IMG/VR virus record: IMGVR_UViG_3300044624_000193
Coordinates: 1 to 27,196 of that record
DNA: 27,196 bases
Strand: one strand, 5' to 3'
Source of the DNA: a virus
The notes under the pieces: model-generated
Database searches by the model: none
The model's input: the letters and a program-made list of their open reading frames with translations, nothing else
What the model was told of the DNA's origin: nothing
Program-made: the position numbers and the translations under genes
Shown: positions 5,890 to 25,586 of the stretch, piece by piece
Position numbering within the stretch: the first letter of the stretch is position 1
Layout: the number at the start of each line of letters is the position of its first letter

Positions 5890-8800
5890 ATGGCGCAACG
5901 TAACATTGATTTTGGAACATTTCCAGACGATCCAGATGCAGATGCTATTAGAACCGCATTTCAAAAAGTACAAGAAAACTTCTCAGAACTTTTCGGTGGA
6001 CTTCAAGACCAAGCGGTAATTTCAGTTAATAGAACTTCTGGTGCAGGTATAACAGTAAACTCTCCTACGGGAAACGTAGTAGTTACTGCTAATATTGCTT
6101 GTGTACAAGTACACACAAGTACTCTTAGCATTGGTAGAGATTCGAATGGTTCGCAAGATACCTCAATTACCAGTTCATCACAGGTTTTATGGGTCGATCT
6201 TCCTGCAAACATTGCAAACGTAGCAAACATTTACTTAACAGGTAACTTGTATGCAAATACTATTACTTCAAATTTACAGTTAAATGGTAACGTTGGAAAC
6301 TTCAGTGGCAATTTAACTGCGTCAAATTTAATTGCTAACTCAAGACTAGTAGTAACTGGCAATGCTAACGTAGGTAACTTGGGAACAACAACAGGTATCT
6401 TTACTGCTAACGTAGATGCAGTAAATTTCAATGGTACTAATGTAGTTGCTACTGGAAATGTATCAGGTTCTAGTGGCATCTTTGTTGGAAATATTTCAGC
6501 AGGTAATGCTAACTTAGGTAATTTAGTTACTGCTAACTATTTCTCAGGTGATGGTTCAAACTTATCTAACGTAGTTGCTGTCGCAGGTAATAAAATTGAA
6601 AATGGCGGAAGCAACGTAGTTGTAACTTTGAATGGTAACGTAACTACAACTGTTAATGGTTTTGTTGTTGAAGTAGTTACTACTGGTGGCGTCAATGTTA
6701 CTGGAACAGGCAACTTCACAGGAAGTCTTACTTCAGTAAATGCTAACTTAGGCAATAGTGTAACAGCAAATTATTTTGTTGGTAACTTATACGGCGCAGC
6801 CAATACAGCAACTAGTGCATCAACTGCTGGTACAGTAACAACCAATGCTCAACCTAACATTACATCAGTTGGAACACTGACTTCATTGACTGTATCAGGG
6901 AACGCAGGTGCAGGTAATGTTAACGCTGTTGGAGGTGTATTCACTTATGTGTCCGGTGATGGTGGAAATCTCAGCAACATCACAGGTGCTAATATTACTG
7001 GCGCTGTTGCTTTTGCAACTACTGCCAATGCAGTAGCAGGTGCTAACGTATCCGGTGAAGTAAACTATGCGGCTAATGCAAATAGTGTTGCAGGTGGAAA
7101 CGTATCTGGTGCTGTTGCATATGCAACTACTGCTAATAGTGTAGCCGGAGCAAATGTTTCAGGTGCAGTTGCTTTTGCAAATACTGCAAATGCAGTAGCC
7201 GGCGCTAATGTTAGCGGTACTGTTGCTAATGCAACATATGCTGTAACAGCAGGAACTGCTAATTCAGTAGCAGGCGCTAATGTCTCAGGTGCAGTATCAT
7301 TCGCAACAACAGCAAATGCAGTAGCGGGTGCTAACGTAAGCGGCGAAGTAGCAAACGCAACATTTGCAACAAGTGCTGGCACAGCAAACAGTGCAACTGT
7401 AGCGGCAAGTGCAAACGCAGTAGCCGGAGCAAATGTCTCAGGTGCAGTATCATTTGCAACAACAGCAAATGCAGTAGCAGGGGCTAACGTATCTGGTCAA
7501 GTAGGAAACGCATTAGTTGCAAGTACTGTGTATACTAATGCTCAATCAAATATCACTTCAGTTGGAACTTTGACTTCATTAGCAGTTACCGGTAATACTA
7601 CATCAGGTAATCTTTATGCTAACTCAGGTACAATCGGGGCTTCATTACTAACTGGTACACTAACTACAAATGCACAGCCAAATATTACATCAGTGGGTTC
7701 ATTGGCATCATTGACAGTTACAGGAAACATTGGTGCAGGTAATATTAACGGTGGAAATCTTGTCAGTGCTAGTTTCTTTAGTGGTGATGGTAGTGGATTA
7801 TATAATTTACCTGTTAGTGCCGGTACATTTATTAACAACGGTAATAGTAACGTTTGGTTAGATGCTAATGCTAATCTTAATGTAACTATTGCAGGTACGG
7901 CTAATGTAATGCGGGTTACTAGTACCGGAGCCAACATTACTGGCACATTAAACGTTACAAGCAATGCTAATGTAGGTAACTTGGGTGCTACTGGTGTAGT
8001 TGCTACTACTATTGCCGGTTCATTAACTACAGCAAGTCAACCAAACATTACATCATTTGGTACATTGACCGGACTTAATGTAGCAGGTACAAGTAACTTA
8101 GGTCCAAACAGTAATGTTATTATCACCGGTGGTAGTAACAATCAATTCTTATTATCAGATGGCACAGGTGGTGTCAAGTGGATTACTCCTGCAAACGTAA
8201 CCACTGCACCCGGTGCTAATACAAATATTATCTTTAACGATAATGGTAGCATCAATGCAACATCAGGATTAACATTCAATAAAACTACTAGTGCGTTAAG
8301 CGTAACTGGCAATGCAAACGTTGGCAACATCGGAGCAGCCGCAGGTGTGTTCACTACTGTAGCAGGTTCGTTGACTACAGCAAGTCAACCAAACGTCACC
8401 TCAGTTGGTACACTAACAACATTGGGTGTAAGTGGAAATATCACAGCAGCCAACATCACTGCTAACTCTGGTGTATTCACTGGCAATGGTAATGGATTAA
8501 CTAATATTCCGGGTGCTAATGTAACTGGAACTGTGGCAAACGCAACTTATGCAACAAGTGCAGGCACTGTAACAACTAATGCTCAGCCTAACATCACATC
8601 AGTTGGTGCATTGACTTCATTGATCGTGAGTGGAAATCTTAACGCAGGCAAAACAGCAATTTCAGCAGGAACAGTAACTTCTAATGTTCACGCATTAACT
8701 GTATTACAAACTTGGAATAACGCAGGTGTACAGTTTAGTGCAATTGAGGTAGATATTACTGACACCGCATCATCTGCAAACTCATTGTTATTAGATTTGC

Positions 8801-10107
8801 AAGTTGCAAACGTAAGTAAATTTGCAGTAAGTAAAGAAGGCAACATATTCTATTCCGGTGTAATCACGGGTAATGGTTCAGGTCTAAGTGCAATAGCCGG
8901 TGCTAATGTATCCGGTGCTGTATCTAGTGCTACAAGCGCAACTACTGCTGGAACAGTAACAACTGCGGCACAAGGTAATATTACTTCAGTCGGTACACTA
9001 ACAAGTTTAGCAGTAACTGGTAATATTAGTGCAGGTAACGTAAGTGCTACGACATTCACTGGTGCATTATCAGGTGCGGCAACAAGTGCAACTACTGCTG
9101 GTACAGTAACAACTGCGGCACAAGGTAATATTACATCAGTTGGTACGTTAACTTCATTAGCAGTAACTGGAAACATCAGTGCAGGTAATGTAAGTGCAAC
9201 AACATTTACAGGCGCACTAAGTGGCGCGGCAACAAGCGCAACAACAGCCGGTACAGTAACAACTAATGCTCAACCCAATATTACATCAACTGGTACATTG
9301 ACTTCATTAACAGTATCAGGTAATGTAAGTGCAGGTAATGTAAGTGCAACAACTTTCACTGGTGCATTATCAGGTGCGGCAACTACAGCAGGAACGGTTA
9401 CAACTAATGCTCAATCTAATATTACATCAGTTGGCACACTAACATCGTTGGGCGTAAGTGGAAATATCATTGCGGCTAACATTACTGCGAACTCCGGAGT
9501 ATTCACTGGTAATGGTTCAGGATTAAGTGCAATAGCAGGTGCTAATGTAAGTGGTGCAGTAAGTTATGCTACAACAGCAAACGCAGTAGCAGGTGGTAAT
9601 GTCTCTGGTAACGTCAATGCGGCATTGGTTGCATATTCTGTAGCAGGTGCTAACGTATCAGGTCAAGTAGGTAACGCATTAGTAGCAGGTACTGTTTATA
9701 CAAATGCTCAACCTAATATTACATCAACTGGTACATTAACAAGTGTATCAGTAACAGGAAATGCTAGTGCTAATAATTTTGTTGCAACAAGTTATCATAT
9801 TCGTTCTGTAGGTACTGGCATTTCAGCAGCCGGTTCAACACAAGGAACTGCAACAACAATCTCTAAAGAAATTAATATTGTTTCTACTGTAGCCTCAGGT
9901 GCTGGTGTTATTCTTCCAGCAGTAGCAGGTGCTGTAATTACAATCACTAATACTTCTGCTAACTCTTTGTTAGTATATCCTGCATCAGGAGCCGCAATCA
10001 ACTCATTAGCGGCAAACACAGGATTTACTCAGGGTGCAGGTTCAACCTTACAATTTATTGCCCCAACTACAACTCAGTACTATACAGTTGGCGCTACTTA
10101 TGCCTAA
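5890..10107 (+). CDS. Long repetitive tail-fibre-like protein
   Basis: This 1405-residue protein is rich in Ala, Gly, Asn, Thr, Ser and Val, with almost no Cys, Trp or His, as in trimeric beta-structured phage fibres. The N-terminus (NIDFGTFPDDPDADAIRTAF, then QKVQENFSELF) looks like a short helical attachment domain. Most of the rest is built from variants of NVSGNISAGN, FSGDGSGLSNI and AQPNITSVGTLTSLTVSGN. A 54-base repeat block (7033-7530) and 150-base repeats (8941-9390) lie within it. Residues about 915-985 form a non-repetitive island with LQTWNNAGVQFSAIEVDITD. The C-terminal 110 residues (from ATSYHIRSVGTG) are non-repetitive and are the likely tip domain. Start supported by AAGGTGA. 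Receptor binding or virion adhesion is inferred; no folding chaperone or endosialidase motif is seen. Confidence 0.8.
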   Translation: MAQRNIDFGTFPDDPDADAIRTAFQKVQENFSELFGGLQDQAVISVNRTSGAGITVNSPTGNVVVTANIACVQVHTSTLSIGRDSNGSQDTSITSSSQVLWVDLPANIANVANIYLTGNLYANTITSNLQLNGNVGNFSGNLTASNLIANSRLVVTGNANVGNLGTTTGIFTANVDAVNFNGTNVVATGNVSGSSGIFVGNISAGNANLGNLVTANYFSGDGSNLSNVVAVAGNKIENGGSNVVVTLNGNVTTTVNGFVVEVVTTGGVNVTGTGNFTGSLTSVNANLGNSVTANYFVGNLYGAANTATSASTAGTVTTNAQPNITSVGTLTSLTVSGNAGAGNVNAVGGVFTYVSGDGGNLSNITGANITGAVAFATTANAVAGANVSGEVNYAANANSVAGGNVSGAVAYATTANSVAGANVSGAVAFANTANAVAGANVSGTVANATYAVTAGTANSVAGANVSGAVSFATTANAVAGANVSGEVANATFATSAGTANSATVAASANAVAGANVSGAVSFATTANAVAGANVSGQVGNALVASTVYTNAQSNITSVGTLTSLAVTGNTTSGNLYANSGTIGASLLTGTLTTNAQPNITSVGSLASLTVTGNIGAGNINGGNLVSASFFSGDGSGLYNLPVSAGTFINNGNSNVWLDANANLNVTIAGTANVMRVTSTGANITGTLNVTSNANVGNLGATGVVATTIAGSLTTASQPNITSFGTLTGLNVAGTSNLGPNSNVIITGGSNNQFLLSDGTGGVKWITPANVTTAPGANTNIIFNDNGSINATSGLTFNKTTSALSVTGNANVGNIGAAAGVFTTVAGSLTTASQPNVTSVGTLTTLGVSGNITAANITANSGVFTGNGNGLTNIPGANVTGTVANATYATSAGTVTTNAQPNITSVGALTSLIVSGNLNAGKTAISAGTVTSNVHALTVLQTWNNAGVQFSAIEVDITDTASSANSLLLDLQVANVSKFAVSKEGNIFYSGVITGNGSGLSAIAGANVSGAVSSATSATTAGTVTTAAQGNITSVGTLTSLAVTGNISAGNVSATTFTGALSGAATSATTAGTVTTAAQGNITSVGTLTSLAVTGNISAGNVSATTFTGALSGAATSATTAGTVTTNAQPNITSTGTLTSLTVSGNVSAGNVSATTFTGALSGAATTAGTVTTNAQSNITSVGTLTSLGVSGNIIAANITANSGVFTGNGSGLSAIAGANVSGAVSYATTANAVAGGNVSGNVNAALVAYSVAGANVSGQVGNALVAGTVYTNAQPNITSTGTLTSVSVTGNASANNFVATSYHIRSVGTGISAAGSTQGTATTISKEINIVSTVASGAGVILPAVAGAVITITNTSANSLLVYPASGAAINSLAANTGFTQGAGSTLQFIAPTTTQYYTVGATYA
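7033..7530 (+). repeat. Eight copies of a 54-base coding repeat in the fibre gene
   Basis: Units begin at 7033, 7087, 7141, 7195, 7267, 7321, 7420 and 7474. Each encodes a variant of VAGANVSGAVAFATTANA. Most neighbours are exactly 54 bases apart, with inserts of 18 and 45 bases twice. The protein is strongly conserved while synonymous codons for V-A-G-A-N-V differ from copy to copy. Confidence 0.9.
8941..9390 (+). repeat. Tandem 150-base coding repeat in the fibre gene
   Basis: Units start at 8941, 9091 and 9241 with periods of 150, 150 and about 141 bases, then decay into related sequence. Each encodes a 50-residue unit containing AGTVTTAAQGNITSVGTLTS and GNVSATTFTGALSGAATSA. The third unit carries a 3-residue deletion at its end and a perfect 15-base tandem duplication (GGTAATGTAAGTGCA). 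Confidence 0.9.
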
Positions 10108-10121
10108 GAAAGGAATTATTA

Positions 10122-10286
10122 ATGGCTAAAGCAAAATCAGGTAACGGTAATCAAAAAGTCACATTCAGTGATCAAACAAAAGGAAAGACTACTATTGGAG
10201 CATCGCATAGTTCCATTAAGTTTTCTACTATGAATAAGCATAAGCGTACAAATTATAAAGCATATCGTGGTCAAGGTAGACCGTAA
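10122..10286 (+). CDS. Small basic conserved phage protein, 54 residues
   Basis: This short gene encodes a 54-residue, Lys/Arg/Thr/Ser-rich protein starting MAKAKSGNGNQKVTFSDQ and ending YKAYRGQGRP. The ATG is preceded by AAAGGA at 10108-10113, and the frame runs without interruption to TAA at 10284. Its composition (very basic, no hydrophobic core) suggests a disordered nucleic-acid-binding or structural peptide. From memory, similar short proteins with a C-terminal YRGQG signature occur in aquatic T4-like phages, but I cannot assign a role. Its place between a fibre gene and the endolysin points to late expression. Confidence 0.75.
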   Translation: MAKAKSGNGNQKVTFSDQTKGKTTIGASHSSIKFSTMNKHKRTNYKAYRGQGRP

Positions 10287-10302
10287 AAAAAGGATAAAAA
10301 GT

Positions 10303-10929
10303 ATGTCAAAAGTCACATTAGAATTATTAAAAGAAATTTGTCCTAAGACTAAATCAACAGTCTTAGCAAAATACGTAGAACCATTAAATGAAGTAGGCGA
10401 ACACTTTGGATTGTTTGAAAATCCAAAGAGAATGGCAGCATTCTTAGCACAAGTAGCACACGAATCTGGTGGTTTTAACTTTGTGAAAGAAGGATTAAGT
10501 TATTCAGCGGTTTCACTGAATAAAGTTTTCAAAAAGTATTTCCCAACAGTAGCAGCCGCAAAAGCATATGAACGTCAACCTGCAAAGATTGCAAATAAAG
10601 TTTATGCAAGTCGTATGGGCAATGGTCCAGAAAGTTCAGGTGATGGTTACAAGTTTTGCGGGCGCGGATTAATTCAATTAACCGGCAAAGACAACTATAC
10701 TCGTTTTGCTAAATCAATTGGTAAAACATTAGATGAAGCAGTTGCATATCTAGAAACTTCTGACGGCGCAGTAGCGAGTGCAGGTTGGTTTTGGGATGCA
10801 AACAAGTTAAGTGTTTATGCAGATAAAGGCGACTTCGTAGGTCTAACTAGACGTATCAATGGTGGTACTATTGGTCTTGCAGATAGACAACATCACTATG
10901 ATATTGCACTTAAGGCGTTAGCAGACTAA
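10303..10929 (+). CDS. GH19 chitinase-like endolysin
   Basis: This 208-residue enzyme belongs to glycoside hydrolase family 19 (chitinase/lysozyme fold), which in phages cleaves the peptidoglycan glycan chain. Visible landmarks are AFLAQVAHESGGF (E54), E63 nine residues later as in compact bacterial GH19 enzymes, SSGDGYKFCGRGLIQLTG at 111-128, ASAGWFWD, and RRINGGTIGLADR near the C-terminus. E54 and E63 are the expected acid/base pair. No signal peptide, membrane segment or separate cell-wall-binding domain is present, so a holin would be needed for release. I chose the ATG at 10303, 9 bases behind AAAAAAGGA. A GTG at 10267 would overlap the upstream gene. Its location inside a fibre cluster also leaves open a virion-associated lytic role. 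Confidence 0.88.
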   Translation: MSKVTLELLKEICPKTKSTVLAKYVEPLNEVGEHFGLFENPKRMAAFLAQVAHESGGFNFVKEGLSYSAVSLNKVFKKYFPTVAAAKAYERQPAKIANKVYASRMGNGPESSGDGYKFCGRGLIQLTGKDNYTRFAKSIGKTLDEAVAYLETSDGAVASAGWFWDANKLSVYADKGDFVGLTRRINGGTIGLADRQHHYDIALKALAD

Positions 10930-10937
10930 GGAATAAA

Positions 10938-13712
10938 ATGGCACAACCAATTTGGAATACTGCATCAGGCTCTATAGGAACTTTCCCTTCGGGAGTTGTT
11001 ATGGTTTATCAATTATCCGCATCGGCAGTTTTACCTGCCGTAACAGTAACCTATGCAGTTATTAGTGGTAGTTTACCTAATGGGGTAACAATGGATGAAG
11101 ATGGCTTGATCGCCGGTATTCCAACGTTGGTAACATCTGATGTTTCATACTCATTTGTAGTAAGAGCAACAGATAACTATGCAAATTTACGTGATAGAAC
11201 GTTTACTATCACTACATCAGGTGCCGCAGTTCCTCAGTTTACAACACCAACTGGAACAATTACTACGACATTAGACAGCACATGGATTGAAATTCCAGTT
11301 GAATATTTAAACCCGGTATCGACTAATCCAGTTAGTATTAGATTAATTCAAGGACAACTGCCTCCTGGCATTGAAATTAATACTACTGGGCTATTGCGTG
11401 GATATGCGGCACCCCCATTAATAAATTTAAATCTTGGGTTAGTAACTACTTCAGCAGTTGCATCTAGTTCAAATACTGTTGTATGTTTAAGTACATCTGG
11501 ATTTAGAGTAGGAAGACCGATACAGTTCACTGGTACTGTATTTGGTGGAGTCACCTTTGGACAAACATATTATATACAATCTATTATAGATGAATCTACC
11601 TTTACTATCTCAACAACAGTAGGCGGACCTGTATATCTATTAAGTGATGCTGTAGGATTTATGAACGTTACTCTTCCTAATATTTCTATTGGACAACCAA
11701 CTGTACAGACATATTCATTTACATTGAAACTTGAAAGTCCTTTAGGTAGCGACATTGAATCATACTCAATTACAGTAATTAATCAAAATGCTACTGGCGG
11801 AGAAGGCGGGCCATCGTTCCCACCTAATACCAGAGTTCCAACTATCTATAATACTAGACCATCTACCTATAATATTTCTGCTAACGAACAAGATTTTGGA
11901 TATTACGTATTGCCGCCTGACTCAGGCGGATTCACATATGCACCTTCTGAATTAGCATACATTGGAAAAATTACTAGTGATAATTATTTCACTTTTAGAA
12001 TGTTAGGTCATGATTTTGATGGCAATGCACTTGAGTATGTATTTGCTGATTTGCCTTTAGGTCTAGTAGGTAATATTACTACAGGTTGGATTGAAGGGAC
12101 TCCTATTATTGCAGATAATAGCATCAACGAATTTTCATTCAGTGTTGCAGTTCGTAAAGCCGCAAATCCAGCAATCACTACACCAAACTTTAATTTCTCA
12201 TTTAGAATTAGAAATGAAATCGTAGGTGATATCGCATGGTTGACCCCCTCAGATTTAGGTCAAATTTTTAACGGCACAGTAAGTACTGAAAGAGTCAAAG
12301 CAATCAGTGATGTTACATTACAATATAGATTGATTGGTGGTCAGTTACCACCTAACTTAACACTGTTATCTAATGGTGAAATCTCTGGTGTTGTGGCATA
12401 TCAGCCTACTGAGGTGTTCTTAGATCCAGGTCTTACTACTGATTTCTCATTTACTATTCAGGCGTACTCTCCTCAGTTCCCCGTAATACAAACTACTAGA
12501 ACGTTTACTTGGAGTGTTTATCAGGAATACAATCAACCAACAGATACACTGTATATTAAGTGTGTTCCATCTATTGCAGATAGAAGATTATTAGCATCAC
12601 TGTTAAACAGTACTTCATTGATTCCAGAAGACTCATTGTATAGGCCCAATGACCCATACTTTGGTAAAGCAACTAGTATCATCTATGAACATGCTTATGG
12701 TATCTATGCTAGTAGTTTTGAACAATATGTTGCGGCTATTACAAAGAATCACTATTGGAGAAACATTACATTAGGTGAATTAAAGACTGCTATTGCACGT
12801 GATGACAATGGCAACATCATTTATGAAGTCGTGTATAGTCAAGTGATTGATAACTTAGTTAATCCATCGGGAACTAGTATTCAAGAAGAAATTTATTGGC
12901 CAAGACCTATTCCATTAGAATTGGGTCCATGGTATACAAGTGAAACGAATTTGTTTACCAGTTATGTTTCAGCACCAAATGGTCAAGAGTTTTACACTAG
13001 TTTAACTCCGGGCTTTGCAAGAGTATTGTATCCTAACAGTTTGCCAAACATGCGTCAACGTGTAGGTCAAAATTTAGGACAAGAATTTGACTTTAGACTA
13101 TTGCCAAAGTGGATGACTTCACAGCAACGCAATGGTTCTACTTTGGGATATACCCCTGCTTGGGTAATTGCATATTGTGTACCGGGAATAGATTTATCTA
13201 TTGTTGCGTCACAAACTAATTCAATTACAAATGAAATTACAGTTACTTCAACAGAAGGTTTTGTAGTTGGCAGACAAATAACATTTACTGGAACTACATT
13301 TGGTGGAATCAGTACTAATAGCATTTATTATGTTAGAGAAGTCACTAGTCCAACTACATTTACAATAAGCATTGATCAAAACTTAGAACAAGAGTTTTCA
13401 TTAAGTACTGAGGTTGGTAGCATGAATGCAATATTACCTAGTGTCTCTTACGCAGAAGTAATTAAAGATAATATTAACACTAAATGGGTAAATCCAATTA
13501 CTAATACTCCATACACGTTAAACACAATCAATTTTACAATTGATAGATTTACAGTAGACAAGAGTATCACATTTAACTATGATACTAACGTCAGTCCTCC
13601 CGCATGGACTGGATTGCCTAGCGCAAGTCCTACACCTTCACCATTAGATTCGAAAGATTTCTATGTATTATATCCTAGAAAAACAATTTTACCGGATCAG
13701 ACACAGTACTAA
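10938..13712 (+). CDS. Large virion protein with putative Ig (He_PIG-like) repeats
   Basis: This 924-residue protein has at least four Ig-like repeats of the putative-Ig type, each with the signature G-x-LP-x-G followed by G-x-I/L-x-G. They lie at about residues 37-92 (SGSLPNGVTMDEDGLIAGIP), 100-282 (GQLPPGIEINTTGLLRG, split by an insert), 345-428 and 445-530 (GGQLPPNLTLLSNGEISG). Residues 540-750 are a non-repetitive, mixed domain with aromatic clusters (YWPRPIPLELGPWYTS). The C-terminal domain (836-882) contains INFTIDRFTVDKSITFNYD. Two related modules of about 80 residues sit at 172-247 and 753-834. No signal peptide. It probably decorates the baseplate or fibres. Start supported by AAGGAAT. 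The structural role is inferred from composition and position. Confidence 0.72.
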   Translation: MAQPIWNTASGSIGTFPSGVVMVYQLSASAVLPAVTVTYAVISGSLPNGVTMDEDGLIAGIPTLVTSDVSYSFVVRATDNYANLRDRTFTITTSGAAVPQFTTPTGTITTTLDSTWIEIPVEYLNPVSTNPVSIRLIQGQLPPGIEINTTGLLRGYAAPPLINLNLGLVTTSAVASSSNTVVCLSTSGFRVGRPIQFTGTVFGGVTFGQTYYIQSIIDESTFTISTTVGGPVYLLSDAVGFMNVTLPNISIGQPTVQTYSFTLKLESPLGSDIESYSITVINQNATGGEGGPSFPPNTRVPTIYNTRPSTYNISANEQDFGYYVLPPDSGGFTYAPSELAYIGKITSDNYFTFRMLGHDFDGNALEYVFADLPLGLVGNITTGWIEGTPIIADNSINEFSFSVAVRKAANPAITTPNFNFSFRIRNEIVGDIAWLTPSDLGQIFNGTVSTERVKAISDVTLQYRLIGGQLPPNLTLLSNGEISGVVAYQPTEVFLDPGLTTDFSFTIQAYSPQFPVIQTTRTFTWSVYQEYNQPTDTLYIKCVPSIADRRLLASLLNSTSLIPEDSLYRPNDPYFGKATSIIYEHAYGIYASSFEQYVAAITKNHYWRNITLGELKTAIARDDNGNIIYEVVYSQVIDNLVNPSGTSIQEEIYWPRPIPLELGPWYTSETNLFTSYVSAPNGQEFYTSLTPGFARVLYPNSLPNMRQRVGQNLGQEFDFRLLPKWMTSQQRNGSTLGYTPAWVIAYCVPGIDLSIVASQTNSITNEITVTSTEGFVVGRQITFTGTTFGGISTNSIYYVREVTSPTTFTISIDQNLEQEFSLSTEVGSMNAILPSVSYAEVIKDNINTKWVNPITNTPYTLNTINFTIDRFTVDKSITFNYDTNVSPPAWTGLPSASPTPSPLDSKDFYVLYPRKTILPDQTQY
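11451..11678 (+). repeat. Shared virion module, copy A
   Basis: This copy encodes residues 172-247 of the Ig-repeat protein. Its core is GFRVGRPIQFTGTVFGG, then YYIQSI, STFTIS and FMNVTLP. It interrupts the second Ig-like repeat between its G-L-L-R-G turn and its final strands. Copies B, C and D (13194, 14419, 14740) share the order G-F-x-V-x-x-x-I-x-F-x-G-T, Y-Y-V/I, T-F-T-I/V-S. Confidence 0.7.
13194..13439 (+). repeat. Shared virion module, copy B
   Basis: This copy encodes residues 753-834 of the same protein. Its core is GFVVGRQITFTGTTFGG, then YYVREV, TTFTIS and SMNAILP. It separates AWVIAYCVPG from YAEVIKDNIN, which read as parts of one domain. Confidence 0.7.
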
Positions 13713-13715
13713 ATA
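13708..13715 (+). promoter_or_regulatory. Late promoter box ACTAAATA
   Basis: CTAAATAC overlaps the stop codon of the Ig-repeat gene. A 19-base gap to the ATG at 13735 holds the Shine-Dalgarno GGAATGAGA. The box departs from GATAAATA at two positions but has the CTAAATA form seen in cyanophage late promoters. Confidence 0.5.
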
Positions 13716-13734
13716 CATTACGGAATGAGAAAAC

Positions 13735-15057
13735 ATGAGTCAAATTAACACAAATGGAATCGATGTAAATTATCCAATCCCCGGACAGAACAATAGTTCT
13801 CAAGGTTTTAGGGATAACTTTGCCCAAATTAGAACTAATCTTAATACTGCTGGAACTGAAATCACTGATTTGCAGACTAAGGTTGTAGTTAAAGCCGCAT
13901 TGGATAACACAACTATTGATAACAACATGGCTAATACTCTTATTAGCAATGCGGCAGTTAGAGGCTTCAGATCAACCACATACAATTTAGGCAATGCTAT
14001 CTCTGGCACATTGTTAGTAGATACGTCACTAGCAGACGTACAGTATGGCGCAGTAACTGGGAACACTACACTACAGTTTGGTGGATGGGCTCCTACTAAT
14101 ACAGAAAGCAGTATTACATTACGTCTTTCAATTTCTAATACTAGTGCAGTTATTTCATTGCCTTCAGCCGCAATCTCATCAAATAACAACTTTGGTGTTA
14201 CATTACTTGAGAATTATACTCAGATTGGTAACGTAGCAACATTCACTGCTCCTGCAAATACAACAATTTTAGAATTTGATATTACCACAGTTGATTGCGG
14301 TGTCTCTCTAACAGTTGAGCCAACCAATAGACCTTTCCAGTCAACACAGATTGTAACACGTGAGATTCCACCAACTGGTGTTCAAGGTGATACTAATGGA
14401 ACAGTGGCAGTGGGTCCTTCAGTTAATCAACTAGTAATTACTGGAGCAAACACTGACCCATACTTAACTACATCAGGTAATACTACACAGTTATATCCTG
14501 ACTTACCCGTTGTGTTCACGGGCACTTCACTTGCTGGCAACTTAGTAGTGGGAACAACATATTACGTAAGAAACGTTGTATCAAGCACTACGTTCACTGT
14601 ATCTTCAAGTATCGGCGGTGCAAACGTTGCTATCGGTGCTAATGCTAGTGGTACAACAATGTTAGCAAACCCTGCATCATATCTTTATATCTGCACTGAT
14701 ACATTTGATGCTAATGTAACCAATACATATGATGTTGTTAATGCATATGCAACAACTAATCGTGTAACAGTTGAGCCTACTACTGGCTTAGTTGTGAATG
14801 CACCAATTGTATTCAGTGGCAATACAGCAACACTTGATACAGCAAACACTAATATTCAACCAAATGTAGTTTACTATGTCAAGTCAATTATTGACGTAAG
14901 TTCTCCATCTGGAAATATTACTATCAGTCGTACAAGAAACAATGGCGTTGCAGGAACAGTTCACACAATTACTTCAAACAGTGGTCCAATGACAGCAACA
15001 TTAAGTTCCTATGTTGGTAGTGATATTTGGAAACGTGTGAACTTGAATTCATGGTAA
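13735..15057 (+). CDS. Fibre-like structural protein with two shared modules
   Basis: This 440-residue protein starts NGIDVNYPIPGQNNSSQGF, then RDNFAQIRTNL and TEITDLQTK, a short helical N-terminus resembling a fibre attachment segment. The 1405-residue fibre has an analogous RTAFQKVQENFSELF. Residues 55-200 form a strand-rich domain (TTLQFGGWAP, SITLRLSISNTSAVISLPS). The C-terminal domain is assembled from GVQGDTNGTVAVG, SYLYICTDTFD and SDIWKRVNLNSW, separated by module copies C (229-312) and D (336-424). Similar proteins are common virion components in aquatic T4-like phages. No enzyme motif is visible. A late promoter and GGA-type Shine-Dalgarno precede the start. Virion location is inferred. 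Confidence 0.72.
   Translation: MSQINTNGIDVNYPIPGQNNSSQGFRDNFAQIRTNLNTAGTEITDLQTKVVVKAALDNTTIDNNMANTLISNAAVRGFRSTTYNLGNAISGTLLVDTSLADVQYGAVTGNTTLQFGGWAPTNTESSITLRLSISNTSAVISLPSAAISSNNNFGVTLLENYTQIGNVATFTAPANTTILEFDITTVDCGVSLTVEPTNRPFQSTQIVTREIPPTGVQGDTNGTVAVGPSVNQLVITGANTDPYLTTSGNTTQLYPDLPVVFTGTSLAGNLVVGTTYYVRNVVSSTTFTVSSSIGGANVAIGANASGTTMLANPASYLYICTDTFDANVTNTYDVVNAYATTNRVTVEPTTGLVVNAPIVFSGNTATLDTANTNIQPNVVYYVKSIIDVSSPSGNITISRTRNNGVAGTVHTITSNSGPMTATLSSYVGSDIWKRVNLNSW
14419..14670 (+). repeat. Shared virion module, copy C
   Basis: This copy encodes residues 229-312 of the 440-residue protein. Its core is LPVVFTGTSLAGNLVVG, then YYVRNV and TTFTVS. It sits between NGTVAVG and SYLYICTD. Confidence 0.65.
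14740..15006 (+). repeat. Shared virion module, copy D
   Basis: This copy encodes residues 336-424 of the 440-residue protein. Its core is GLVVNAPIVFSGNT, then VVYYVKSIID and GNITIS, ending PMTATL. It separates YICTDTFDAN from GSDIWKRVNL. It is the most diverged copy. Confidence 0.6.
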
Positions 15058-16846: not shown

Positions 16847-17203
16847 ATGGCATCTATCAATAAAGTAAAAGTAAACAAACTTATACCACTACACGATACT
16901 ATCATTGTATCCGATATGGAATTCACTGAACGTATCAGTAATGGTGGTATTATCATTCTTAATGACGATATGAAAAGCGCAGGCATTCGCCCACGTTGGG
17001 GGAAGGTCTATGCAATAGGACCAAAGGTAAAAGACATTGAAGTAGGACAATATATTATGATAGCACACGGTCGCTGGACACGTGGTATCACTATTGATAC
17101 TCCTGAAGGCGAGAAAGTAATCCGTAAAGTTGATAACCAAGATATTTTATTAGTCAGTGAAGACAAACCACAAGACGAAACAATGAGTGACAAGGTATAT
17201 TAA
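16847..17203 (+). CDS. 31: GroES/gp31-like co-chaperonin
   Basis: This 118-residue protein has GroES topology. PLHDTIIVSDMEF begins the barrel, ERISNGGIIILNDD contains the hydrophobic mobile-loop tripeptide followed by the next strand, and WGKVYAIGPKVKDIEVGQYI corresponds to the GroES region G-x-V-x-A-V-G followed by V-x-V-G-D. NQDILLVSED matches the final strand. The length is close to T4 gp31 (111) and longer than GroES (97), mainly through a C-terminal acidic tail. In T4, gp31 replaces GroES on host GroEL and enlarges the cage so that the major capsid protein can fold; the same role is likely here. Mobile-loop specificity cannot be judged without structure comparison. Confidence 0.85.
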   Translation: MASINKVKVNKLIPLHDTIIVSDMEFTERISNGGIIILNDDMKSAGIRPRWGKVYAIGPKVKDIEVGQYIMIAHGRWTRGITIDTPEGEKVIRKVDNQDILLVSEDKPQDETMSDKVY

Positions 17204-17228
17204 GTATGGGGGCATATGTCCCCATACT
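17203..17228 (+). other. Strong hairpin without U-tract
   Basis: AGTATGGGG and CCCCATACT form a perfect 9-base stem, extended by G-U and C-G pairs around ATAT. It begins at the stop codon of the GroES-like gene. The tail ATTCACATTC is not a good U-run, so it may be a weak terminator, a stabiliser of the upstream mRNA 3' end or a processing site. Confidence 0.7.
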
Positions 17229-17251
17229 ATTCACATTCAGAAAGGTAAATA

Positions 17252-17932
17252 ATGTTTAATACGCACGTTTATAGGTCAGCATCAGAAGTTAACAGTTCTA
17301 TGCTACGAGTTTACAATCATATGACTCTAGCAGTTATTGTTAGTATGTTGGTCAGTTATTTTGTAGGCAGTTCACCTGAACTATTAGCCTTTTTCTTTAC
17401 GGGCATTATGAAATGGATCACTATCTTTGCTCCACTGGTAGCAGTATTTGCAATTTCATATGTTCTCAATGACAACCGATCAGTAGGTTCTGCACAGTTA
17501 ATGTTACATGGCTTTGCTACATTAATGGGCTTGAGTTTTTCTGTTATCTTTGCTGTATATCAAATGGGTAGTATTGTATCAGCGTTTATGGGAGCGGCAA
17601 TCTTATTTGGAGTTATGAGTTTTTATGGATATTTCACGAAGAAAAATCTCGATAGTATTGGTAAGTTTATGTTTGTTGGGCTTATTGCTATCATCATTGC
17701 CAGTATTATTAATATTTTTATTGGTAGTAGTGTGGCTTCTATGGTCATAAGTGCATTAGCAATCATTATCTTTTTGGGTCTAACTGCTTACGATACCCAA
17801 AAGATTCGTGAAGAACTTAGCGTTTCGGGTAATAATGATGTTGCGGAAGTCCGAGGGGCATTGACATTGTACCTAGATTTCATTAATATGTTTATTAATC
17901 TACTATCACTATTCGGAATAAAGAAGGATTAA
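17252..17932 (+). CDS. Bax inhibitor-1/YccA-like integral membrane protein
   Basis: This 226-residue, very hydrophobic protein has about seven predicted membrane segments (roughly 24-38, 47-71, 86-104, 107-127, 138-156, 160-179, 205-222). Family hallmarks are present: GLTAYDTQKI at 176-185 and ALTLYLDFINMFINLLSLFG at 203-222, matching the BI-1/TMBIM signatures. D181 and D209 correspond to the aspartate pair that forms the pH-sensitive latch in bacterial BsYetJ. In E. coli, family member YccA is a substrate and inhibitor of the membrane protease FtsH; others conduct calcium. AAAGG precedes the ATG. A gene for a single-span membrane protein follows after 4 bases. FtsH modulation or membrane-leak control during infection is inference. 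Family assignment is strong. Confidence 0.88.
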   Translation: MFNTHVYRSASEVNSSMLRVYNHMTLAVIVSMLVSYFVGSSPELLAFFFTGIMKWITIFAPLVAVFAISYVLNDNRSVGSAQLMLHGFATLMGLSFSVIFAVYQMGSIVSAFMGAAILFGVMSFYGYFTKKNLDSIGKFMFVGLIAIIIASIINIFIGSSVASMVISALAIIIFLGLTAYDTQKIREELSVSGNNDVAEVRGALTLYLDFINMFINLLSLFGIKKD

Positions 17933-19800: not shown

Positions 19801-20583
19801 TTATGAGTACATCTTTAGAATGTGTTCAATAATTGAGTGCCTCCTAATGTCTTTCATGTCGAATTCGCAAGCAGTCATGCCTGGTACACGATTAGTTTGA
19901 ATTTTCGCTTTTAAGTCTAACAACCCGTTGTCAGGTGTTTTGCGGTCGGTCTGTTCTACGTCACCAGTAATGACAATCTTACTGCCCTCACCAATTCTTG
20001 TCATTAGCATTTTCATCTGGTTAGGAGTAGCATTCTGTGCCTCGTCTAAAATAATCCAACTGTGTTTAAAGTTACGACCACGACAGAATGCGAGTGGTGT
20101 AATTTCAATGATTTGTTCTTCTAACATATGTTCGATTTCTTTTGCGCTATAGTACTCCCTTAAAATATCTAGTAATGGTCTGACCCATGGTTCCATTTTC
20201 TGATTCAAATCACCGGGTAAAAACCCGTGTTTTTCATCGTCCACTGCAACTGCTGGGCGAGTCAAAATTATTCTATCACAGTCGCCTGCTCTCATAGCCT
20301 TAATCGCCGCTAACATAGCGAGATAAGTTTTACCAGTACCCGCAGGTCCACTCACCATAACGATATCAGTTTCAGGGTCAGTTAATGCTATGATATATTT
20401 TTCCTGATTAATACTCTTAGGTATCAGATCGATGGGTTTTCGTGAACGCTTTTGCGTCTGGGCTTGATTGAAGTCGATAGTTTTAGATTCATTCATATAG
20501 AATGCTTGACTTTCATAGTTTTGAGTTTTTTTAGAGTAACGTGTGTCTTTCTGTCTGAGTGCGCTTGTTTTACGTTTGGTCAA
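19801..20583 (-). CDS. phoH: PhoH-like ATPase
   Basis: This 260-residue P-loop ATPase of the PhoH family has Walker A GPAGTGKT (79-86), RPAVAVDDEKHGFLPGD (109-125), FCRGRNF (166-172), Walker B WIILDEAQNATPNQ (176-189) and VITGDVEQTD (203-212); all are characteristic. PhoH-domain proteins are widespread in aquatic phages; proposed roles involve RNA or phosphate-stress metabolism, unproven in phages. The N-terminal 50 residues are basic and Gln/Lys-rich. The start is TTG at 20583, 7 bases after AGGAG. The next in-frame Met is residue 30, so the TTG start is well supported. It is the only minus-strand gene here, with its own terminator and a hairpin-bearing leader, suggesting separate regulation. 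Confidence 0.92.
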   Translation of the reverse strand: MTKRKTSALRQKDTRYSKKTQNYESQAFYMNESKTIDFNQAQTQKRSRKPIDLIPKSINQEKYIIALTDPETDIVMVSGPAGTGKTYLAMLAAIKAMRAGDCDRIILTRPAVAVDDEKHGFLPGDLNQKMEPWVRPLLDILREYYSAKEIEHMLEEQIIEITPLAFCRGRNFKHSWIILDEAQNATPNQMKMLMTRIGEGSKIVITGDVEQTDRKTPDNGLLDLKAKIQTNRVPGMTACEFDMKDIRRHSIIEHILKMYS

Positions 20584-21921: not shown

Positions 21922-22443
21922 ATGGGTACAATTTTAACACGTAGATATGAAGAAGAAGAAATGCAAATCATTGCGAAAAATGATGAGCATCACTCCTCTA
22001 TGGTCGAAGATAAGGAGTTTTACAAACAAATGGAACAACGAAATCAGCAGGCCAATCAGATACTAAATCTGACACAAGCAGGTAACAATGCCGCACAGAA
22101 CGCAGAAGTTCTCGTAAAGCATACTAAAGAAAGTGAAGACTGGATCAATAAAAAGTGGAGACCAGCAATGGGTTGGATGTACATGACTGTATGTATTACA
22201 GACTTTGTAATATTCCCAATTCTATGGTCAGTTCTACAGGCAATTGGTGCCGGTCAAGTCACAAGTCAATGGCAACCAGTAACTCTTATGGGTGCTGGTC
22301 TATTCCATATCTCAATGGGTGCAGTTCTTGGTATTGCGGCTTATGGTCGTACTAAAGAAAAGATTGAAGGTGCATCTAACAATGACACTTCAGTTGGTGC
22401 AACAGCACCGGCAGCCCCATCATTGGGCGGAATGTTAAAATAA
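21922..22443 (+). CDS. Putative holin-like membrane protein
   Basis: This 173-residue protein has an N-terminal charged amphipathic helix (residues 1-75, Glu/Gln-rich), then KKWRPAMGWMYM leading into membrane segments at about 83-109 and 118-141, and a short basic/polar end. The W-R-P entry, two-span hairpin and AAYGRTKEKIEG exit resemble the 3TM holin family found in gene-transfer agents and phages. Holins perforate the inner membrane to release endolysin; the GH19 enzyme in this window lacks its own secretion signal and would need one. It is about 11 kb away from that gene, so pairing is inferred. A virion or membrane-tethered structural protein is the main alternative. Confidence 0.5.
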   Translation: MGTILTRRYEEEEMQIIAKNDEHHSSMVEDKEFYKQMEQRNQQANQILNLTQAGNNAAQNAEVLVKHTKESEDWINKKWRPAMGWMYMTVCITDFVIFPILWSVLQAIGAGQVTSQWQPVTLMGAGLFHISMGAVLGIAAYGRTKEKIEGASNNDTSVGATAPAAPSLGGMLK

Positions 22444-22482: not shown

Positions 22483-23283
22483 ATGGATCATTATAGCACA
22501 CTGGGAATTCCACGTACGGCTTCTCCCGAAGAAATCAAAAAAGCATATCGCAAACTTGCGATGGAACATCATCCTGATCGTGGAGGTGATAATGTTAAAT
22601 TCCAAGAACTTAGTATAGCGTATAACACGTTAAGCGACCCAGATAAGAAGGCTGCTTACGATAATCCACAGGCTCAATTCGGTGGTTTCAACTTTGGCCC
22701 AAATGGTTTTGACTTTCAAGATATCTTTAAAGCATTCAATCAACAACAGACTAATCCATTTGAAGCATATGTCCGTCAACAGAATCAACAGCAACAAATG
22801 TATCGTACAAGAGTTACAGTATCATTAGTTGATGCATATAATGGAACCGAACAAGTATTAAAATTGAATACTCCTCAAGGTCTAAAAGTAGTCAATCTTA
22901 AATTGCCTCGAGGTGTAAAAACCGGAGACAATATGCGTTATGATAACGTAGTTAACGGAGCAATGTTACTGATTGAATTCGTAGTATTATCTGACTTACG
23001 TTTTGATAGAAGGGACGATGACTTGTATGCTAATTTACCTATATCAGTATTAGATTTAATTGTTGGAACAACTATTCAATTTACTACTATAGGTAAGAAA
23101 ACACTTGAAGTTACAATTAAGCCGGGAACGCAACCATATATGCAACTAAAGATTCCAGGAGAAGGTATGCCTTCCCGAAACGGTGGAGTAGGTGACCAAA
23201 TACTCTTGCTAAAACCCTTCATACCTGATAATATAGATACTGATATAATAGAAAGTATCAAGCGAGCCTATCAAAATAAATAG
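22483..23283 (+). CDS. DnaJ/CbpA-like J-domain co-chaperone
   Basis: This 266-residue Hsp40 has a J-domain at residues 1-63 (DHYSTLGIPRTASPEEIKKA, with H30-P31-D32 intact), the residue triad that stimulates DnaK ATPase. A short Gly/Phe and Gln-rich linker follows (GGFNFGPNGF, then QQNQQQQM). The C-terminal substrate-binding domains (108-250) contain VTVSLVDAYNGTEQVLKL and IKIPGEGMP-like LKIPGEGMPSRNGG. The zinc-finger cysteines of DnaJ are absent, so it is a class B (CbpA-type) protein. It could direct host DnaK toward phage proteins or feed clients to the ClpA-like unfoldase encoded next, whose promoter overlaps this stop. The start is chosen by the promoter geometry and the intact J-domain. 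Confidence 0.93.
   Translation: MDHYSTLGIPRTASPEEIKKAYRKLAMEHHPDRGGDNVKFQELSIAYNTLSDPDKKAAYDNPQAQFGGFNFGPNGFDFQDIFKAFNQQQTNPFEAYVRQQNQQQQMYRTRVTVSLVDAYNGTEQVLKLNTPQGLKVVNLKLPRGVKTGDNMRYDNVVNGAMLLIEFVVLSDLRFDRRDDDLYANLPISVLDLIVGTTIQFTTIGKKTLEVTIKPGTQPYMQLKIPGEGMPSRNGGVGDQILLLKPFIPDNIDTDIIESIKRAYQNK
23275..23282 (+). promoter_or_regulatory. T4-late-type promoter box AATAAATA
   Basis: AATAAATAGTATTA overlaps the dnaJ-like stop codon. The 21-base gap to the TTG at 23304 holds the Shine-Dalgarno AAAGGA. This box allows late expression of the unfoldase separate from the J-domain gene. Confidence 0.6.
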
Positions 23284-23303
23284 TATTACTAAAGGAAATA
23301 AAA

Positions 23304-25586
23304 TTGCAACAATCACCAGAAATTGAAAACATTATTGAACGTGCTATTGAAGCCGCAAAGGGACGCCAACATGAATATGTTACAGTAGAACATTTGCTAC
23401 TGTCTCTTATCTCACATCCTCCCTTCAAGAAATGTTTGAATCAATTCAACGTTGATACAGATTTAATGATTTCGGAAGTAGAAGCATATCTTAATGGATT
23501 ACATGCTATCGAATCAAAAGAACCCGGCATTCAGCCAAAGCGTACCAATACACTTGAGCGTGTTATGAATCGTTCAGTAACACAAGTATTGTTTACTGGT
23601 CGTAGGCAAGTTACTACAGTTGACTTGTATCTTTCTATTGCTAGTGAAGGTAACTCACATGCACATTACTTTCTATTAAAGTACGGCGTCACTAAAGGTG
23701 ATTTTGTTAATCACTGGCAGAAGGTATATAAGGGAAGTGATTTCACCGCTAATCTAACTGATAATCAAGCAGATGAAATTCTTGAAGAATATACGATTAA
23801 TCTTACACAAATGGCCCGTGAAGATAAACTAGAACCGGTCATTGGTCGCAGTAAAGAAATCGATGACATTATCAATGTCCTCGCAAAGCGTTTCAAGTCA
23901 AACGTATTAATGGTCGGTGACCCAGGGGTTGGTAAAACTGCAATCGCAGAAGGTATTGCTAACGCTATTGTTGCGGGAGAAGTTCCTGAGTTCTTAGAAG
24001 GATATGAACTATTCTCACTTGAGATTGGTTCATTACTAGCAGGATCTAAGTATCGTGGCGACTTTGAAGAAAAGGTAAAGGCTGTACTTGATGCTCTAAC
24101 CATTAAGAAGAAGGCTATTCTTTTCATTGACGAAGCACATACTATGCAAGGTGCGGGTGCATCCAGCAATGGTTCACTAGACTTTGCAAATATGATTAAG
24201 CCTGCAATTACTAAAGGCACATTAAAAGTTATTGCAAGCACAACATGGGAAGAGTTCTACGAAAGTTTTGAAAAGGATCGTGCATTGATGCGCCGATTCT
24301 ATAAGGTAACTATTGATGAACCTTCAACTGAATCTACGATTCGTATTTTGTCAGGACTATCAACTCGCCTCAACGACTTCCACAATGTAAAGATCACGGA
24401 CGAAGCAATCGAAGCCGCAGTAGAAAGTTCAGCACGTTATATTCACGACCGCAAGAATCCTGATAAGTCAATTGACTTACTTGATGCGGCTTGTGCAAAG
24501 CAACGTGTTTTAGGTAATGAAGAAGCAATCATTACTAAGCAATTGATTCACGAACAGGTTGAAAAGTTTACAGGCGTCCCTGCTGATAAGTTGTCAGGAG
24601 ACAACATGGATCGTATTCAGAACCTTGAAATTAATGTTAAGAGTAAGTTGTATGGTCAAGATGCGACCGTAGAACAAGTTCTTGAGCGTGTGTATGTTTC
24701 GTTCGCTGGCATTGGCAACGACACTAAGCCGATTGCAAGTTTCTTGTTCTTGGGCCCAACGGGTACAGGTAAAACAGAACTGGCGAAATTGCTGTCCAAG
24801 AATTTGGATATGCCGCTTCTCAAGTATGACATGTCGGAGTACAGCGAGAAGCACAGTGTAAGCAGTTTGATTGGCCCGCCCCCTGGCTACGTAGGCTTTG
24901 GCGATTCACAAGTACAAGGTGGACGCCTAATTTCAGACTTGAGCAAGAATCCGCACTCAATCTTATTGTTTGACGAAGTTGAAAAGGCTCATCCAGATAT
25001 CTTCAATATTTTCTTGCAGATTCTAGATGAGGGAACTATCACTGGATCAAATGGTAAGCAGGTTTCATGTAAGAATACGCTAATCGTTCTAACATCTAAC
25101 TTGGGTTCAGCGGACAGCGAACGGAACAACATTGGATTTGGTACACAAGAAAAGTCAGGTGAAGATGACAAGGCTCTTAAGCAATTCTTCAAGCCTGAAT
25201 TTAGAAATCGTCTTGATATGGTTTGTAAGTTCAATAAGTTGGACACCCTTTCAATTAAAAAGATTGTTGTCAAGTTCACTGATGACCTTAAGAAGTCATT
25301 ACTAGAAAAGCATAACATCACATTAAACTTTAGTGAACCTGCTATTGAACATCTAGCAGAAGTTGGCTACGATAGTAAAATGGGCGCACGTCCACTTGCA
25401 CGTAAGATTGATGAACTAATTCGTGTACCACTGTCAAAGAAGATTTTGTTTGAACGTGTTTCAAATGCAAATATCATGGCAGTAATGGATGGTGATAAGA
25501 TTGATTTCACTATCTCTAATAAGAAAACAGCGAGAGTAGGTGAAGATGGCATTATCGAAGTTGAAAGTGAACCAGGTAGACCGTGA
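23304..25586 (+). CDS. clpA: ClpA-type AAA+ unfoldase
   Basis: At 760 residues it matches E. coli ClpA (758) and lacks the ClpB middle domain. The N-domain begins PEIENIIERAIEAAKGRQHE, then YVTVEHLLLSLI. D1 has Walker A GDPGVGKT (205-212), pore loop SKYRGDFE (248-255), Walker B LFIDEAH (273-279) and arginine fingers at R330/R331. D2 has Walker A GPTGTGKT (484-491), GYVGF pore loop (528-532), Walker B LLFDEVEKA (554-562), and sensor-2 GARPL (694-698). I610-G611-F612 occupies the position of the ClpA IGL loop and fits the ClpP-binding consensus. TTG is the start, 7 bases after AAAGGA; no nearby ATG exists. It probably unfolds proteins for host ClpP. No phage ClpP is seen here. Confidence 0.92.
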   Translation: MQQSPEIENIIERAIEAAKGRQHEYVTVEHLLLSLISHPPFKKCLNQFNVDTDLMISEVEAYLNGLHAIESKEPGIQPKRTNTLERVMNRSVTQVLFTGRRQVTTVDLYLSIASEGNSHAHYFLLKYGVTKGDFVNHWQKVYKGSDFTANLTDNQADEILEEYTINLTQMAREDKLEPVIGRSKEIDDIINVLAKRFKSNVLMVGDPGVGKTAIAEGIANAIVAGEVPEFLEGYELFSLEIGSLLAGSKYRGDFEEKVKAVLDALTIKKKAILFIDEAHTMQGAGASSNGSLDFANMIKPAITKGTLKVIASTTWEEFYESFEKDRALMRRFYKVTIDEPSTESTIRILSGLSTRLNDFHNVKITDEAIEAAVESSARYIHDRKNPDKSIDLLDAACAKQRVLGNEEAIITKQLIHEQVEKFTGVPADKLSGDNMDRIQNLEINVKSKLYGQDATVEQVLERVYVSFAGIGNDTKPIASFLFLGPTGTGKTELAKLLSKNLDMPLLKYDMSEYSEKHSVSSLIGPPPGYVGFGDSQVQGGRLISDLSKNPHSILLFDEVEKAHPDIFNIFLQILDEGTITGSNGKQVSCKNTLIVLTSNLGSADSERNNIGFGTQEKSGEDDKALKQFFKPEFRNRLDMVCKFNKLDTLSIKKIVVKFTDDLKKSLLEKHNITLNFSEPAIEHLAEVGYDSKMGARPLARKIDELIRVPLSKKILFERVSNANIMAVMDGDKIDFTISNKKTARVGEDGIIEVESEPGRP

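Follow-up and report, generated by a model that had tools for sequence, protein, structure and literature searches.

The window, i.e. the whole stretch of DNA that was analysed, is a 27,196-nt fragment of an IMG/VR virus record. It carries two adjacent genes, here called gene 1 and gene 2, within which one small module occurs four times (Table 1). Upstream lie genes for tail tube, head-closure, 1405-aa tail-fibre-like and endolysin-like proteins. The clamp loader encoded in the window shares 53% identity with its counterpart in Pseudomonas jumbo phages (about 285 kb) and the longest orthologous contigs reach 333 kb, so we take the window to belong to a T4-related jumbo phage. The 1405-aa tail-fibre-like ORF (5890-10107) consists of repeated NITSVGTLTSLTVTGN-type units, with a 150-bp spacing near the end of the ORF. 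Further downstream, host-like genes (16847-17932 and 22483-25586) encode a GroES-like Cpn10, a membrane protein of the Bax1-inhibitor family, a DnaJ with C-terminal domain and a ClpA/ClpB-type ATPase, while a PhoH-like ATPase gene (19801-20583) is on the minus strand, with its neighbours on the other strand. A three-transmembrane holin of the gene-transfer-release type (GTA_holin_3TM, E=1.3e-9; 21922-22443) is encoded apart from the endolysin-like gene (10267-10929).

In the product of gene 1, Ig domains of He_PIG/cadherin-like type form a chain (three stretches match He_PIG, E=1.6e-9), which is combined with a conserved C-terminal half, homologous to proteins of the phages Phosso and Atu_ph07. 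Both homologues (Phosso, L001, 3349-7212; Atu_ph07, L002, 2234-5989) are annotated as serine peptidase; since the homology to gene 1 is confined to the C-terminal half of the Phosso/Atu_ph07 protein, the peptidase part apparently has no counterpart in gene 1 of the window. A Foldseek search with the gene-1 model returned cadherin/Ig chains, which arise from the host domains and say nothing on the module. In gene 2, residues 1-222 form the conserved N-terminal part and the C-terminal unit has three strands, GTVAV / SYLYICT / DIWKRV. Among the BFVD matches of gene 2 are tail fibre and Major tropism determinant N-terminal proteins.

Table 1 Features of the window and giant open reading frames of related contigs.
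Feature	Sequence	Position	Strand	Residues and context	Evidence
Gene 1, virion protein	Window	10938..13712	+	924 aa; hosts copies 1 and 2	ORF
Copy 1	Window	11424..11681	+	aa ~163-248, core aa 173-242; inside second Ig-like domain of gene 1	Profile E=9e-28
Fifth insertion site	Window	12978..12992	+	Near aa 681-685 of gene 1, before EFYTSLTPG; empty in window	Module present in L080, L100 and kin
Copy 2	Window	13188..13448	+	aa ~751-837, core 759-829; between strand AWVIAYC and helix YAEVIKDNIN of gene 1	Profile E=4e-23
Gene 2, tail-fibre-like	Window	13735..15057	+	440 aa	ORF, alignment, AF2 model
Copy 3	Window	14413..14676	+	aa ~227-314, core 239-306; between strands GTVAV and SYLYICT of gene 2	Profile E=1e-21
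Copy 4	Window	14710..15018	+	aa ~326-428, core 336-419; between strands SYLYICT and DIWKRV of gene 2	Profile E=1e-18
Giant ORF	L144	524-19981		Open at end of fetched stretch	
Giant ORF	L145	536-19795			
Giant ORF	L146	964-19758	-		
Giant ORF	L147	557-19447			

Four copies of one module

A sequence-only reading of this DNA had described the four copies, two in each gene, and alignment against shuffles together with an iterated profile confirmed them at the places where it had put them. The copy pairs 1-2, 1-3, 1-4, 2-3 and 2-4 align locally at 7.4-19.5 s.d. above the mean, with 0 of 2000 shuffles scoring as high. Compared directly by local alignment, copies 3 and 4 show no significant similarity (113 of 2000 shuffles as high); they are linked only through one common iterated profile, whose E-values for all four copies are listed in Table 1. 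Chance or low-complexity similarity among the copies is ruled out by the shuffles and these E-values. The core covers about 71 profile positions, the domain has about 75 residues, and the inserted stretch is 86-103 residues long. The profile found no further copies among the window ORFs of at least 250 aa, and a search of the PDB with it gave nothing beyond chance matches to nanobody and capsid chains. A second, related module type (VISGTFGGTGSITGY-DPTTYYI) occurs in tandem inside the copy-3 or copy-4 site in gene 2 of L044, L068, L023, L041 and L208.

Alleles without the module

Relatives were collected as 80 IMG/VR loci with gene 1, and more were obtained by scans with divergent members of the gene-1 and gene-2 families. 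Each copy had been proposed to interrupt a recognisable unit, a claim that natural alleles lacking the copy bear out at 4 of 4 sites: orthologues without individual copies, with clean junctions and continuous flanks, were found for every one of them. Copy 1 is present in all main-clade orthologues of gene 1 and missing only in an outgroup clade (L108, L109 and L111), whose sequences run continuously across the site as ...GVISGYPVPPVA-INGSPTSKRSDFTI.... Copy 2 occurs in 12 of 118 distinct gene-1 sequences, and most orthologues have only a short empty loop at this site (AWVIAYC-PG/YAE; ...KPG/YAE...). Seven other sequences among the 118 carry the module at a fifth site, for which the model of the window protein shows a loop with pLDDT < 50 (aa 656-694).

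In gene 2, L066 reads GTMCSDSSYLYVCTGTYNGSTAIWKRISLSAF and has neither copy 3 nor copy 4, which indicates that these copies occupy two turns of one three-strand unit. Seven alleles are empty at both sites, leaving out L278, which is cut by the contig end, and L328, in which the site-4 module is present; about 50 alleles lack copy 3 only, and some contain additional tandem modules. Copy 4 is missing in L066/L152, L267, L183, L336, L169, L108 and L109, the last two being empty in gene 2 as well as in gene 1. For the copies of the window itself there is no near-identical empty allele; the nearest genome that differs at site 2 is about 68% identical. A scan of viral contigs with the Phosso protein did not find intermediates, and a search of genome contigs yielded one fragment, in a Synechococcus MAG.

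The host domain at the copy-1 site becomes continuous when the copy is removed, as had been anticipated. The Pfam Ig family He_PIG is not detected in aa 96-290 of the window gene 1, appears at 17.2 bits with a match spanning the junction when the flanks of copy 1 are joined, and reaches 38.8 bits, above the cut-off of 24, in the naturally empty L108. AlphaFold models (mean pLDDT 78 for gene 1 and 77 for gene 2) show the copies as compact strand-only units, with their own strand sets between host elements and pLDDT mostly 86-92 in the blocks of copies 1, 2 and 4. The module is thus modelled as a separate strand set rather than as an integral part of the host domain, and is predicted to be a small autonomous beta-barrel-like domain sitting in loops.

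Direction of change and turnover

The gene-1 tree was rooted on Agrobacterium phage Atu_ph07 and Sinorhizobium phage Phosso, both of which run through the copy-2 site without an insert. In this tree L108/L109 are sister to all module-bearing proteins (support 88/84), and the position of this module-free clade as sister to the rest means that the copies are gains. The view of the modules as integral domains is rejected in the light of the empty alleles and the rooting.

The module was gained at all four sites of the window, and at some of these, most strongly at that of copy 3, it appears and disappears repeatedly. On host trees from which the module columns were excluded, copy-3 occupancy changes about 22 times, at least 11 of these changes being forced by well-supported branches. 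There are 4 changes for copy 2, 2 for site 5 and about 3 for copy 4, a count that may be slightly high because L328 was scored as empty there. In the main clade, copy 1 is an old, fixed feature and copy 4 is almost fixed; turnover is restricted to sites 2, 3 and 5. L079, empty at site 2 within an occupied clade, indicates that losses or back-replacements also occur. A tree of the modules themselves, built on 71 columns and too short for naming donors, groups largely by site, which indicates vertical inheritance between exchange events.

Near-isogenic alleles and exchange between phages

The best-resolved junction comes from L173 and L223. These two contigs agree at 99.7% identity across the 1836 bp that precede the copy-3 site and at 99.6% across the 1880 bp that follow it. 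Between these flanks lie 23 bp in L173 and 284 bp in L223; the difference amounts to precisely copy 3, in frame, and both ORFs are intact. No target duplication was found at this junction, and the neighbouring host strand has also changed, from YLYVC to YMYIA, a pattern that fits allele replacement, with recombination in the conserved flanks, better than a bare insertion. A gain in L223 is suggested by L197 and L331, the next closest relatives, both of which are empty. A BLAST search for the donor of the L223 copy 3 gave no match above about 70% identity.

The pattern is seen again in L299 and L322. Here the C-terminal cassette of gene 2, bounded by the GD-x-x-G strand and a position close to the DIWKR strand, has been swapped, and the sequences on its two sides are 94.2% identical (4.2 kb) and 93.1% identical (3.5 kb). 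Moreover, copy 3 of L056 is 78% identical to that of the window, with 62% identity in the host part; compared with its close relative L049, the host part of L056 is 88% identical and copy 3 only 57%. The sequence-only reading had pictured a domain that spreads by in-frame insertion. In-frame gains at all four sites, established by the empty alleles and the rooting, uphold the insertion part of this picture; free spreading does not fit the best-resolved move, that between L173 and L223, which looks like a recombinational swap of alleles.

The module in related jumbo-phage genomes

Related genomes contain many further copies of the module, most of them in a single giant virion protein. The module profile gave 3-25 matches in each of 12 related contigs, and the six longest (174-333 kb) have 17-25 modules each. 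In each of four contigs that were read, L144-L147, a single giant ORF (6,265-6,486 residues, or more) contains 14-17 matches to the module. In the ORF tested, that of L147, the N-terminal half matches the virion structural protein family phrog_10938 with 759 bits. At one site of the giant protein the module is present in 2 of the 4 genomes and the remaining two lack any residue there; at another site it is doubled in one of the four. A protein of about 420-455 aa with two modules recurs in related contigs, and a related module is found in a virion structural protein of cyanophage Sf-CH11.

Discussion

The explanation that best joins these results, to which we give a probability of about 0.8, is that an autonomous barrel-like domain has been inserted into loops of virion proteins of T4-related jumbo phages, moves mainly by recombination and would decorate the virion surface. 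Our analysis supports the earlier interpretation in amended form: copies 1 and 4 are old, movement at allelic sites is best seen as recombinational replacement, and adhesion is a hypothetical role. Most movement at the allelic sites would come from recombination of related phages with one another, the breakpoints lying in conserved strands on either side of the loop, and an occupied loop would replace an empty or different one in a single step. Such exchanges would preserve the reading frame, since the sequence on both sides is conserved and coding. To reach a new site for the first time, the module would need rarer illegitimate recombination or duplication within the genome. The least certain step concerns function: as the loops tolerate the domain, the module could decorate the surface of the virion and make variable, weak contacts with host-surface glycans or with neighbouring subunits.

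The alternative that survives best concerns this last step, and holds that the module is a structural spacer or clamp, which stabilises neighbouring subunits or lengthens a fibre, and not an adhesive decoration. For similar domains added to phage tail sheaths, either cell binding or a stabilising effect on the virion has been suggested (PMC9230969), and the repetition of modules along the giant virion protein also agrees with a clamp. However, the high turnover of copy 3 and swaps between phages would be more expected of a surface-exposed, host-facing part. A clamp is a possibility to be taken seriously, though not the probable one, and judging from the sequence patterns of turnover and exchange we favour a surface, host-facing role. 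The decoration reading could be extended to a virion-wide diversification scheme, in which strand-coding landing sites allow occupied, empty and double loops to be exchanged as cassettes among co-infecting phages and the giant protein (~6,300 aa or more) provides a genomic store of modules; we consider this extension unlikely.

It is very unlikely that the modules are ancestral and integral and that the empty alleles are deletions. Copy 1 is indeed found in every main-clade orthologue, and L079, whose nearest relatives are occupied at site 2, tells that losses occur. However, the clade free of all copies is the outgroup, the distant Atu_ph07 and Phosso lack copy 2, the He_PIG domain is intact without copy 1, and one and the same loop is filled in scattered lineages. 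Nor is it credible, beyond a slight chance, that the near-isogenic pair and the other differences are products of chimeric metagenome assembly. The relatives are all metagenome contigs and repeats such as the module could be misjoined, but the junctions are in frame in intact ORFs, the pattern recurs independently, as in L299/L322 with their collinear flanks of 4.2 and 3.5 kb, and all-empty alleles stand in complete gene pairs. Finally, a selfish or self-mobilising element of transposon, intein or homing type, which the many copies per genome and the repeated hits on the same loops might recall, is extremely improbable for a unit of about 80-100 codons, too small for a mobility enzyme, whose best-resolved junction (L173/L223) has no target duplication and includes an exchanged neighbouring strand.

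Domain shuffling in phages is usually inferred from distant comparisons. Here, a single module is seen in occupied and empty states at five mapped loops in two genes; the outgroup is module-free, the direction of change is rooted, the turnover has been counted, and the junction of a near-isogenic pair is defined at the base level. The remodelling of outer virion proteins can thus be followed almost step by step. It becomes testable how a domain can be added inside a working structural protein without breaking it, and whether the decoration of a loop has an effect on adsorption or on virion stability.

Comparison with known domains and systems

The fold similarity of the module points weakly to two barrels, and its scores place it in neither of the corresponding Pfam families. 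Copy 1 resembles End_beta_barrel (PF12195) at 15.3 bits (E=0.02) without reaching the gathering score of 35 bits, and the best match among the relatives, 18.4 bits, is also below this cut-off. The endosialidase barrel is looped into a propeller. Insertion into another domain is likewise a property of the module, as seen in the empty alleles and the models, and its position would be at the surface. In the phage K1F tailspike, the endosialidase beta-barrel provides a polysialic-acid site that discriminates hosts (PMC12632334). The module differs from it by scores far below the Pfam cut-off and by the lack of an enzyme context. The other barrel came from a Foldseek search with gene 2, which listed many UBA1 chains with probabilities up to 0.72 but E-values of at least 0.06, a hint of an FCCH-like fold. 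The FCCH barrel of ubiquitin E1 enzymes is also set inside another domain. The Pfam model E1_FCCH (PF16190) has no match in the window and reaches at best 18.1 bits in the relatives, against a gathering score of 29.5. A literature search on FCCH in phages and on giant jumbo-phage proteins found nothing relevant.

The module can also be compared with the Ig-like domains of phages, as known from tail sheaths (PMC9230969) and Hoc (PMC10385173). Both are small beta domains of virion proteins, patchy among relatives, exchanged and with a proposed surface role; patchy presence and exchange between phages are displayed by the module in the changes of copy 3, in L056 and in L173/L223. Unlike these accessory domains, the module alone is not detected as a member of any Ig family in Pfam or PHROGs, it lies inside host domains and loops, and several sites per protein and near-isogenic alleles are documented for it.

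Recent exchange of fragments across phage lineages has been described in receptor-binding and neck proteins (Smug et al. 2023, PMC10684548), and the exchange reported here likewise concerns phage proteins that would face the host. The present case differs from that shuffling in that one looped-in module is followed through empty alleles, with site-by-site turnover on a host tree. Modular virion proteins were thus already known (PMC10684548); what is new is a looped-in barrel with high turnover, for which empty alleles at five sites and near-isogenic variants are at hand.
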